DNA of 64,000 bases from Acetobacteraceae bacterium (lineage in GTDB: Bacteria; Pseudomonadota; Alphaproteobacteria; Acetobacterales; Acetobacteraceae): NCBI GenBank assembly GCA_947455205.1, contig CANGNF010000012.1:1-64000 (forward strand). Direction: 5' to 3'. Position numbers and translations under genes: made by a program. This document shows, piece after piece, positions 40,464-42,762 of the stretch (the stretch's first letter is position 1; each line of letters starts with the position of its first letter). The notes under the pieces were generated by a model. The model ran no database searches. It had not been told where the DNA came from and saw only the letters and a program-made list of their open reading frames with translations.

Positions 40464-40676
40464 TCAGGCCTTCTTCAGGAACTCGGTCCGCAGGACCAAG
40501 CCCTTCACCTTCTCGGCGTTGCACTCGATCAGGTCGTCGTCATCGGTCAGGCGGATGTTCTTCACCACCGTGCCGCGCTTGAGGGTGACCGAGGTGCCCT
40601 TCACCTTCAGGTCCTTGATGACCATGACGCTGTCGCCGCTGGCCAGTGGCGTGCCGTTGCTGTCCTTGGGCGGCAT
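40464..40676 (-). CDS. PhnA/YjdM C-terminal-domain protein
   Basis: The 70-residue protein reads [20 protein letters not shown] then KDLKVKGTSVTLKRGTVVKN, the SH3-like C-terminal domain of PhnA/YjdM. The N-terminal zinc ribbon of the full-length family (about 110 residues) is missing here. The historical name links it to alkylphosphonate use, but that function is not established. Its ATG shares one base with the purC stop (TGATG), so it is translated after purC. It converges with the ELM1 gene 12 bases away. Confidence 0.88.
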   Translation of the reverse strand: MPPKDSNGTPLASGDSVMVIKDLKVKGTSVTLKRGTVVKNIRLTDDDDLIECNAEKVKGLVLRTEFLKKA

Positions 40677-41650
40677 CAGAAGAATCCCTTCAGGTTGGTG
40701 CGGATGCGGTCCAGTACCGGCTGGGCCGGGTCCGGCAGCGGGAAGGGCTGGCCGGTGATCGCCTCGAACACCTGGATGTATTTCAGCGCCGCCTCCAGGT
40801 TCACCTCGGCCGGTATCGGCGGCACCGGGTCCTTGTAGGGGTCGCAGCGGGCGACCACCCAGCGGCGGACATGGTCCTTGTCGAAGCTCTCCGGCGGGGT
40901 GCCGGCGACGACATGCTGGGCATGGCTGGCGGCGAACCAGTAGCGGCTGCTGTCCGGCGTGTGGATCTCATCCGCCACCAGCATGTTGCCCTCGGCGTCG
41001 AAGCCGAACTCATACTTCGTGTCCACCAGGATCAGGCCGCGCGCCGCGGCCATTTCCCGCCCCCGGGCGAACAGCGCCAGCGCCATGGCCTGGGCCTGGT
41101 CCCACTGCGCCGGGGTCAGCAGCTTCTGCTCCAGGATCTGCTGCGGCGTCAGCTCCTCGTCATGCCCGGCGTCGAAGGCCTTGGATGTCGGCGTGATGAT
41201 GGTGGCGGGCAGCTTCTGGTTGGCGACCATGCCGTCCGGAAAGCGGTGGCCGTACATCTCCCGCCGTCCCGCCTTGTACATGGACAGGATGGAGGTGCTG
41301 GTGGTGCCGGCCAGGTAGTCCCGCACCACGATCTCCACCGGCATGATGGTCAGGCGCTTGCAGACCAGCACGTTGGGGTCCGGGTAGGCCAGCACGTGGT
41401 TGGGGGCGATGTCGGCGGTGTGGTCGAACCAGTAGCGCGCCAGTTGGGTCAGCACCTGGCCCTTCAGCGGCACTGCGGTGAGGATGATATCGAAGGCGCT
41501 CAGCCGGTCGGTGGCGATGATGACGCGGCGGCCATCCGGCAGGTCGTAATTCTCCCGCACCTTGCCGCGGTAGTGGCTGGGCAGTTCCGGGATGGCGGCG
41601 TCGCGGAGGGCGTAGCCGGCATAGGGGGCGAGATCGGCGAGCGTGGGCAT
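40676..41650 (-). CDS. purC: SAICAR synthetase (phosphoribosylaminoimidazole-succinocarboxamide synthase)
   Basis: The 324-residue enzyme joins CAIR and aspartate in purine synthesis. Motifs include [20 protein letters not shown] with the ATP loop, [43 protein letters not shown] and the substrate loop [12 protein letters not shown]. The 300-residue class (eukaryote-like and proteobacterial type II) is indicated by length and the SAFD motif. The ATG at 41650 was chosen because the reading frame upstream enters a repeat array. The same control region holds five TTTCGGACAAAT copies. Confidence 0.95.
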
Positions 41651-42305
41651 GCGCTGGTTTAGCCCCAGGCCTGGGGCGGGCGAAAGGGTGGGGCGGCGGG
41701 AAAGCCAGGAAATGACTGGTTCGGACAAATGGCCGGGCTGAGGTGGAGCCCGCCCGGGGCAGCAGGGTGATAGGCGCTGTCGGCCGGGCTGGGTGTTTCG
41801 GACAAATGGCTGGGGTGGGGTGGCACCCGGCCGCGATGCCCGGCCGGCCGCCGGCTGACGGCGACGCTGCGGGTTTCGGACAAATTGACGGCGTGGGGTG
41901 GCGCGCCGGAGTGCCTCGCCGAGGCTGGCCGCCGGCAGCCGGCGAAGCTGCAGGTTTCGGACAAATGGCGGCGGTTGGCCGGCAGGCCGGAATGCGCCGC
42001 CGCGGCGGGCGGGCGATTGCCGGCGCGGCGGGCTGCCGCGGGAAGGCCGCCGGGACGGCATGCCACCGGGGCGCGGCTTTCGGACAAATGCTTGGGGCCC
42101 GCCCGGCGGGGGCGGATGGTCCGGTCCCGGCAGCCGGGGATGAGGAGGAAGGGGAGGCAGGAGGCATGGGTCGCCGCACCAGGGAAGGTGAGAACATTAC
42201 AGCAACATCTTCGGGGAGGAAAGCGAATTGCGCGGCTGCCGAAACGGCTTGACGGCGCCTCCAGCGATGGCCAGGATGGAACGTATAAGGAACATGAGGC
42301 CGCCG
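41651..42305. other. 655-bp gene-free region between purC and the VOC gene
   Basis: No convincing gene is present: open frames on both strands are translations of a degenerate tandem repeat (for example repeated GFGQ or PFVRN). The region contains the five-copy TTTCGGACAAAT array and, at its right end, GACGGCGCC- and GGATGGAACGTATAAGG-type sequence that could form a promoter and ribosome site for the VOC gene. Confidence 0.7.
41719..42090. repeat. Array of five TTTCGGACAAAT direct repeats with GC-rich spacers
   Basis: The 12-mer occurs at 41719 (first base G), 41796, 41874, 41955 and 42078 on the plus strand, 77, 78, 81 and 123 bp apart. The first three copies extend into a common GG-x-x-GGG-TG-GGGTGG tail, so the units are degenerate tandem repeats of about 78 bp. 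The AT-rich core contrasts sharply with the very GC-rich spacers, which can form hairpins (CCTCGCCGAGG, GCCGGCAGCCGGC). The units are not multiples of three in a conserved frame and code for nothing recognisable. Confidence 0.85.
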
Positions 42306-42693
42306 ATGCGCCTGGGCTACCTGATCCTCTACGTGCCGGATGTATCGGCGGCGCTGGCCTTCTACGAGGCCGCCTTCGGCCTGCGGCGACGCTTCCTGCA
42401 TGAGAGCGGGACCTATGGCGAGTTGGAGACCGGCGGCACCGCGCTGGCCTTCGCCGCCGAGGCCCTGGTCGAGGGCAATGGGCCAAACCTTCCGCCCCAC
42501 CCGGCCGGAGGAACCGCCGGCAGCGGCCGAGGTCGGGCTGGTGACCGAGGATGTCGCCGGCGCCTATGCCCGGGCGGTGGCGGCCGGCGCCACGGCCTGG
42601 CTGCCGCCGGCCGAGAAGCCCTGGGGGCAGACCGTATCCTATGTGCGGGACCTCAACGGCTTCCTGGTGGAACTCTGTTCCCCGATGGGTTGA
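42306..42693 (+). pseudogene. VOC (glyoxalase/bleomycin resistance fold) gene with a single-base frameshift
   Basis: The first part reads MRLGYLILYVPDVSAALAFY then EAAFGLRRRFLHESGTYGEL and ends sensibly at ALVEGNG. The following frame continues GQTFRPTRPEEPPAAAEVGL to AVAAGATAWLPPAEKPWGQT and VSYVRDLNGFLVELCSPMG, the normal VOC C-terminus. Deleting one G from the GGG at 42480-42482 restores one protein of about 128 residues. So there is one extra G: a young pseudogene or a homopolymer error. VOC proteins are often lactoylglutathione-lyase-like metal enzymes; the family has no fixed substrate. Confidence 0.85.
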
Positions 42694-42762
42694 GCGCCGG
42701 ACTGCGTTGATGCCCGCGCCCGGCTGCGCCATGGTGCGCCCCCCGCCGGAGGAGACCCGCCC

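Follow-up and report, generated by a model that had tools for sequence, protein, structure and literature searches.

An array of 11-nt repeats in the gap upstream of purC

The window, by which we mean the whole 64,000-nucleotide stretch of Acetobacteraceae DNA analysed here (contig CANGNF010000012.1, positions 1 to 64,000), carries between purC and a divergently oriented VOC/glyoxalase-like gene a gap of about 650 bp that reaches from the purC start (41650) to the next gene start (about 42294-42306), in line with the gene-free stretch of more than 600 bp reported in the first-pass annotation. Five copies of the 11-mer TTCGGACAAAT lie in this purC-adjoining gap, all on the plus strand. The 11-mer is referred to as M, and its complement ATTTGTCCGAA, read on the opposite strand, as M'. 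The features of the locus are as follows:

40676-41650, minus strand: purC, SAICAR synthetase (Pfam PF01259, E 2.1e-65)
41720-41730, plus strand: core copy 1, TTCGGACAAAT after a G (M', ATTTGTCCGAA, on the minus strand)
41797-41807, plus strand: core copy 2
41875-41885, plus strand: core copy 3
41956-41966, plus strand: core copy 4
42079-42089, plus strand: core copy 5
42279-42293, minus strand: GTTC-N7-GTTC box (LexA/SOS-type), 204 nt upstream of copy 5 in the M' direction
42306-42710, plus strand: VOC/glyoxalase-like gene, divergent from purC (from the open reading frame list, named by eye)

Counted with their leading base, the copies start at 41719 (one mismatch, the first base being G), 41796, 41874, 41955 and 42078, and successive copies are 77, 78, 81 and 123 bp apart, which are the intervals of 77-81 bp and then 123 bp given earlier. 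The repeat had been described as a 12-mer identical in all five units; the 12-mer, TTTCGGACAAAT, is found in the four copies that keep the leading T, copy 1 having G there, and only the 11-mer is identical in all five. Since the first base of the 12-mer is free genome-wide, we take the 11-mer to be the true unit. A tail, GGGTGG, ascribed to units 1-3 is present in units 2 and 3 (GGGGTGG), unit 1 reading GAGGTGG. The presence of five copies on one strand is not a random outcome, shuffled sequence yielding a mean of 0.60 matches and none of 100 shuffles reaching five (at most 2 mismatches), and the window holds no further match at up to 2 mismatches, as the annotation had noted for the 12-mer.

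In the M' direction purC is the next gene downstream, 69 bp from copy 1, and the array, if read that way, would form part of the purC leader. The purC loci of two congeners keep arrays of 5 and 2 copies, and a GTTC-N7-GTTC box has a matching position in L040 and L055, likewise purC loci of congeners. Because the box at 42279-42293 is also directly upstream of where the divergent VOC gene starts, it may serve either that gene or the array. No boxA-like element within 2 mismatches was detected at the window array, nor was a good -35 found there by eye. The VOC-like gene itself (42228-42710) is split over two frames near 42478-42500, suggestive of a frameshift or of an assembly error.

Dispersal of the motif in the genome and the family

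A genome-wide search for the 12-mer, as had been proposed, revealed a dispersed element. The genome (G000, 5.68 Mb) holds 21 exact 12-mers and none of the reversed pattern, together with 45 exact 11-mers and 27 one-mismatch places, mostly in same-strand intergenic arrays. Exact 12-mers numbered 9, 2, 52, 22 and 35 in the five congeners searched (G001 to G005, respectively), and one congener holds 63 exact copies of the motif. Across the family, at least one 11-mer occurs in 133 of 249 genomes and at least 10 in only 14 of them. A scan of named genomes for pairs of copies spaced 57-87 bp gave 65 stretches, among them arrays in records named Falsiroseomonas, Neoroseomonas, Roseomonas, Siccirubricoccus, Paracraurococcus and Rhodovarius; IMG/VR yielded no exact 12-mer pair at a spacing of 60-90 bp.

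The loci of G000, G003 and G005 (one G003 place, C54:539087, lies outside the fetched locus set) can be sorted by DNA similarity into 25 groups, 18 with more than one species and 7 with a single locus, and copy number at matching loci varies between species (1 versus 3 in L017 and L027, for example). Cross-species alignments anchored on an exact copy, taken from 8 of the 18 shared groups in both directions with pairs counted twice, showed the core fully conserved in 67 of 83 cases; core identity was 0.932 versus 0.817 in the flanks, bearing out the earlier description of a conserved core in diverging surroundings. The annotation had named two outcomes as contrary to its proposal, loss of the core from retained spacers in related strains and hundreds of copies at unrelated places, and neither was found. 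The motif is asymmetric and linear, with a conserved flanking G at -6 and -2. Spacing ranges from about 26 to 125 bp and is irregular between arrays, and the spacers are often decaying copies of one another. These features, with only an 11-nt core kept, led us to reject a CRISPR array, and no Cas gene caught the eye among the neighbours; a DNA uptake sequence was likewise rejected, only 45 exact copies being present in 5.7 Mb and mostly in intergenic arrays.

Array neighbours, called with a simple, non-standard codon-score caller, include lexA, imuB, an rpsA-like gene and many others. Among 108 arrays, 47 lie between convergent and 23 between divergent genes; for comparison, the intergenic gaps of 80 bp or more in these loci, those with arrays included, comprise 89 convergent and 155 divergent ones. 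This distribution bears on the placement of the window array in the purC control region by the first-pass annotation. A cis-regulatory array specific to purC would agree with the short distance to that gene and with the arrays kept at purC in two congeners, but tens of copies are dispersed beside many unrelated genes, mostly in flanks shared with congeners, and so many lie between convergent genes that a purC-specific role is largely refuted by the genome-wide distribution and scarcely credible in our estimate.

A standalone DUF4096 protein that accompanies the arrays

Of 21 exact copies, all from three outgroup genomes except for one from a fourth, nine were found inside genes, antisense, encoding proteins of about 190 aa. 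These small standalone DUF4096 proteins, of about 190-195 aa, are referred to as D200. The seven D200 proteins scanned matched in Pfam only PF13340, DUF4096 ("putative transposase of IS4/5 family"), which corresponds to the N-terminal part of IS4/5-type transposases, and none of the seven had a catalytic DDE match. An IS5-type insertion sequence or MITE was rejected as an identity on the grounds that the seven proteins consist of DUF4096 alone and that most locus groups (18 of 25) and many D200 genes lie in flanks common to congeners. IS-type DUF4096 loci, scanned without mapped element ends, showed no CGGACAAAT save two that hold D200 genes. No plasmid record covered 80% of the D200 query, IMG/VR gave one partial DUF4096 relative only, and four D200 proteins had no match in PADLOC.

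D200 is present in 58 of the 249 family genomes (profile A1, E <= 1e-25), including all 14 with at least 10 motif copies, of which G028, G064 and G116 may have many of these copies in the D200 genes themselves. As raw genome counts in which kinship is ignored, motif copies have a mean of 8.2 and a median of 3 in genomes with D200, versus 0.67 and 0 in those without it; 15 of the 58 D200 genomes exceed their number of D200 genes by five or more motif copies, and five or more copies are present in 1 of the 191 others. The association is visible within genera: in g96, G168 combines 30 copies with three D200 genes, and G100, G214 and G250 have none of either; in g126, G262 has 16 copies and five D200 genes and G132 three of each, G187 and G229 having 0 and 1 copy and no D200. 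Two findings count against the interpretation developed below, in which M' is recognised by D200 in transcripts: three copies but no D200 turned up in congener G002 (85% complete), and several D200 genomes, for example in genus g4, have almost no noncoding copies. In such array-less genomes TTCGGACAAA is largely confined to the D200 genes (five of six places in G008).

Within the D200 genes M' is conserved as nucleotides. Forty-four distinct genes (31 fetched by Pfam match and 13 by motif match, the other D200 gene sets being profile matches) read xxT TTG TCC throughout: TTG was used in 44 of 44, though it makes up 8% of their leucine codons, TCC in 44 of 44, and the codon before TTG always ends in T (GAT in 39, CTT in 4, ATT in 1). 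Synonymous codon differences exceeded amino-acid-changing ones in six D200 orthologue pairs. A recount over the fetched loci covered 84 distinct D200 genes, that is 88 distinct frames minus four partial DUF4096 frames (L147, L158, L185, L308) that are without the C-terminal part (model end at most 115) and hold the motif in no case, and found in-frame T-TTG-TCC at the usual place in 79. Three of the 84 genes (L312, L318, L326) are without M', which again counts against the interpretation below. Two others, L231 and L325 (both G165), have lost M' at the usual place, where L231 reads GAC CCG GAA TTC GCC GAG, and carry, with unchanged sense, GAT TTG TCC GAA some 50 codons further upstream. Protein function hardly accounts for such a relocation, which points to a nucleic-acid signal that the D200 gene needs in sense orientation; as L231 and L325 are close paralogues, it may be a single event. 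The partial frame at L185 (1659-2283, the same as L021 2659-3283) adjoins a full D200 gene, scores 151 bits over model positions 2-97, and has neither the C-terminal part nor the motif.

Promoter-side elements of the arrays

D200 and the arrays not only co-occur; they also share promoter-side elements in strict orientation. For 115 noncoding arrays we compared the 400 nt upstream in the M' direction with the opposite strand and with the 400 nt downstream, the opposite-strand control being the fairer one since the region downstream frequently reaches into the adjoining gene. The 115 leave out motif copies in confidently called genes, arrays with an identical 60 nt after the last copy, 16 scan loci judged non-Acetobacteraceae by record title and base composition (L071, L072, L078, L079, L084, L087, L088, L090, L094, L098, L110, L111, L115, L121, L122, L123), and L061-L063, which are the same places as G003 loci; because 48 of them come from three congeners, counted separately, array counts are not independent.

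A GTTC-N7-GTTC box lies upstream of 31 of the 115 arrays, downstream of 0 and on the opposite strand of 0. The string GCTCTTTGACA is an alpha-type form of boxA, from which the host's own rRNA boxA may differ; boxA-like matches to it at no more than 2 mismatches were found upstream of 29 arrays (the window array is not among them), downstream of 0 and on the opposite strand of 1, five composition shuffles giving 1-6 of 115. One or the other of these two elements is present upstream of 51 arrays, on the opposite strand of 1 and downstream of 0, and inclusion of an AGGA-N-TCCT palindrome, which offers no strand control, brings the counts to 57 upstream and 0 downstream. All three are missing in 58 of 115 arrays, and this too counts against the interpretation below. 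Sigma70-type scores above 12 were obtained upstream of 39 of 113 arrays, versus 11 on the opposite strand and 1 downstream, mostly with a 17-nt spacer (TTGAAC-N17-TATGTT and TTGACA-N17-TAAATT, for example). In convergent gaps, where there is no flanking gene start, any of the three elements was found upstream in 19 of 47 arrays and downstream in 0. Judged by these sequence features, many of the arrays resemble transcription units running in the M' sense. Folding detected no RNA hairpin around M' beyond shuffles, so that recognition would be of linear sequence, and an Rfam search of the window and five array loci gave no array-related match, one tRNA only. A further leader element, GCATCCGCC, had looked conserved by eye and was rejected as unspecific (15 upstream, 11 downstream and 2 on the opposite strand, of 115). 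GYTCTTTAANA is given as the gamma-proteobacterial boxA consensus in PMC5725501.

The same observations bear on two other explanations. One is a functionless dispersed repeat family of REP or MITE type, spread by a transposase and tandemly duplicated, with which the intergenic, multi-copy occurrence, the species-differing tandem expansion and the link to a transposase-derived gene would agree. That it is very improbable follows from the absence of a palindrome, the single orientation within each array, the 18 of 25 locus groups common to congeners, a core more conserved than its flanks, the nucleotide constraint in coding sequence and the dedicated promoter-side elements. Among the kinds of array that the first-pass annotation had offered, a protein-binding element or a regulatory RNA fits best, the motif being neither palindromic nor a typical mobile repeat.

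The second explanation is that D200 binds duplex TTCGGACAAAT and that the arrays are polar roadblocks or terminators for transcription in the M' direction, that of its own gene included. A transposase ancestor would have bound transposon ends, DUF4096 being the N-terminal part of IS4/5-type enzymes; the asymmetric, linear motif with its conserved flanking G residues at two positions and the enrichment of arrays between convergent genes are in keeping with this. A DNA site would need no promoter or boxA-like leader of its own, yet such elements lie upstream in 51 arrays and hardly ever on the other strand, and the IS-type DUF4096 loci scanned show CGGACAAAT only where D200 genes are also held. 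We regard a duplex-DNA roadblock as unlikely, if worth keeping in mind. What favours an element acting mainly in the transcript is that orientation is strict, that promoter-side elements are present and that the D200 genes require the motif in the sense strand.

Operator-like boxes shared with D200 and the SOS genes

GTTC-N7-GTTC is given as an alpha-proteobacterial LexA site in PMC3091678. Its complement in extended form, GAACATA-N4-GAAC, occurs at 16 places in G000, versus 1 for the reversed pattern. Four of these are directly upstream of D200 genes (C8, C21, C52, C73), all reading GAACATAACAGGAAC, four adjoin arrays (C1, C11, C13:21320, C100), and the same box stands before the imuA-imuB pair (imuB identified by Pfam IMS, imuA by eye and position, without a Pfam match) and before ribonucleotide reductase. 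Among 66 D200 genes with enough upstream sequence, GTTC-N7-GTTC precedes 27 and the palindrome 6; boxA strings, sought as exact strings and hence more strictly than for the arrays, precede 1 of these genes, whose mRNA is translated. GTTC-N7-GTTC is not a universal control, since D200 genes of genus g4 use the AGGA-N-TCCT palindrome. Nor is the palindrome simply another LexA site, given that in G008 imuA has GAAC-N7-GAAC and the D200 genes have AGGA-N-TCCT. No box of either kind was found before imuA in G123 and G168, nor before the second G116 match, which has one weak palindrome-like match upstream. The operator-like palindrome stands upstream of D200 in L196, L197, L200, L230 and L234, and is common to genus g4 D200 promoters and arrays of other genera (L065, L108, L112, L269, L272, L273).

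Arrays of M' follow lexA (called by Pfam LexA_DNA_bind and Peptidase_S24) on the same strand in L018 and L036, 14-15 nt past the stop, and M' copies are present in sense at the imuA-imuB junction in L017, L027 and L058. Copies directly after lexA, sense with the gene, were also seen at L057. Positions of this kind, just after lexA and between imuA and imuB in M' sense, would suit M' as an RNA signal for some other host factor (an RNase, a Nus-like or RfaH-like factor or a base-pairing sRNA), of which D200 mRNAs, arrays and some SOS mRNAs would be mere clients, as would the retention of M' in D200 genes even where noncoding copies are almost absent. A general factor should not track D200 so closely, however, and array-rich genomes are D200 genomes; the lack of an array-related RNA family match at the window and five array loci also speaks against it. 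We judge a host factor of this kind improbable, somewhat more so than the duplex-DNA roadblock.

A possible D200-centred titration circuit

The reading that we prefer, tentatively and as one almost as apt to be right as wrong, is that M' may be a sense-strand recognition element for D200 that acts mainly in the transcript, the arrays being co-regulated decoy or target RNAs. D200 would be a transposase-derived nucleic-acid-binding protein recognising ATTTGTCCGAA; transposase-derived and tracking the arrays, it is the most likely M' binder. One M' in its own mRNA would provide feedback control. Each dispersed array, that at purC included, would have a promoter of its own and would probably be transcribed into an untranslated RNA or a leader, subject like D200 to LexA-type (or genus-specific) control; boxA-like leaders would shield the array RNAs from Rho termination, and the amount of free D200 would be set by the tandem M' copies, serving as decoys or targets. 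The ligand would be RNA rather than DNA, and DNA damage would be expected to induce the system. Feedback on its own mRNA combined with decoy RNAs would be the simplest circuit. Besides the findings already named, the lack of a hairpin around M' beyond shuffles, of a boxA-like element and a good -35 at the window array, and of a universal GTTC-N7-GTTC box count against this interpretation.

CsrA/RsmE proteins and their sponge RNAs CsrB/RsmZ offer a precedent in which a protein's own mRNA and RNAs with multiple motif copies carry the same short linear motif. Feedback and titration would work alike here, a likeness in working only and drawn from sequence, whereas the seven D200 proteins scanned have no CsrA homology, M' is not displayed in hairpin loops, and the loci are many and dispersed. 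RAYT/REP-REPIN systems resemble the present one in pairing a stable transposase-derived gene with dispersed short intergenic repeats that are often clustered. Unlike these, the repeats described here are non-palindromic, have one orientation per array and no enclosing hairpin beyond shuffles, have sigma70, LexA-type and boxA-like leaders, and recur as a nucleotide-conserved motif within the coding sequence of the gene; the RAYT partner is moreover a tyrosine (Y1) transposase, and the seven D200 proteins scanned are of the DUF4096, IS4/5 type. The REPIN definition used for this comparison is that of PMC3116915. As in the boxA-led untranslated RNAs of rRNA leaders, a boxA-like GCTCTTTGNCA follows the promoter and precedes a long untranslated repeat region, which differs in its 11-nt core with decaying spacers and in matching no rRNA or known RNA family. 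The GTTC-N7-GTTC boxes, often over the -10 region, are those of the alphaproteobacterial LexA/SOS regulon. No description of the arrays or D200 units as members of that regulon was found, and some genera use another operator.

More broadly, and a shade more guardedly, we suggest that Acetobacteraceae may possess a hitherto undescribed regulatory system in which D200, a domesticated transposase fragment, and a dispersed set of LexA-type-controlled, boxA-led noncoding RNAs share a linear 11-nt code, the protein, its mRNA and the decoys forming an SOS-tied titration circuit. That code is kept at the nucleotide level inside the D200 coding sequence, with further copies behind lexA and at imuAB. 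Rfam, PADLOC, plasmid and IMG/VR searches yielded no described counterpart, nor did the titles listed for the motif, DUF4096 and Roseomonas noncoding RNA. If this proposal is correct, a DNA-binding fragment of a transposase came to stand at the centre of a genome-wide circuit that has a noncoding RNA family of its own and seems to be wired into the DNA-damage response, and bacteria would provide a case of a nucleic-acid code in coding sequence selected independently of the protein, for which the two D200 genes with a relocated motif offer a natural test. It would also make concrete predictions on transcripts, binding and recoding in culturable environmental Acetobacteraceae.

Motif copies in other contexts

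A contig end of Variovorax sp. CAN15 (L088, 200-780) carries eight exact TTCGGACAAAT in one orientation and with irregular spacing, mostly followed by NCCGG; this array may be unrelated or convergent. On a Parvibaculum-named contig (L094, 480-860), TTCGGACAAATTACGGG repeats with apparent DnaA boxes (TTATCCACA type) precede what by eye is a RepB-like plasmid initiator gene; this iteron-like set has the same 11-mer, possibly by chance. In G168 (L246-L265) the motif has extended flanks, GTCGTA-TTCGGACAAAT-TGCC, that are genus-specific; these copies are mostly single, and many lie at most 75 bp after a stop codon.
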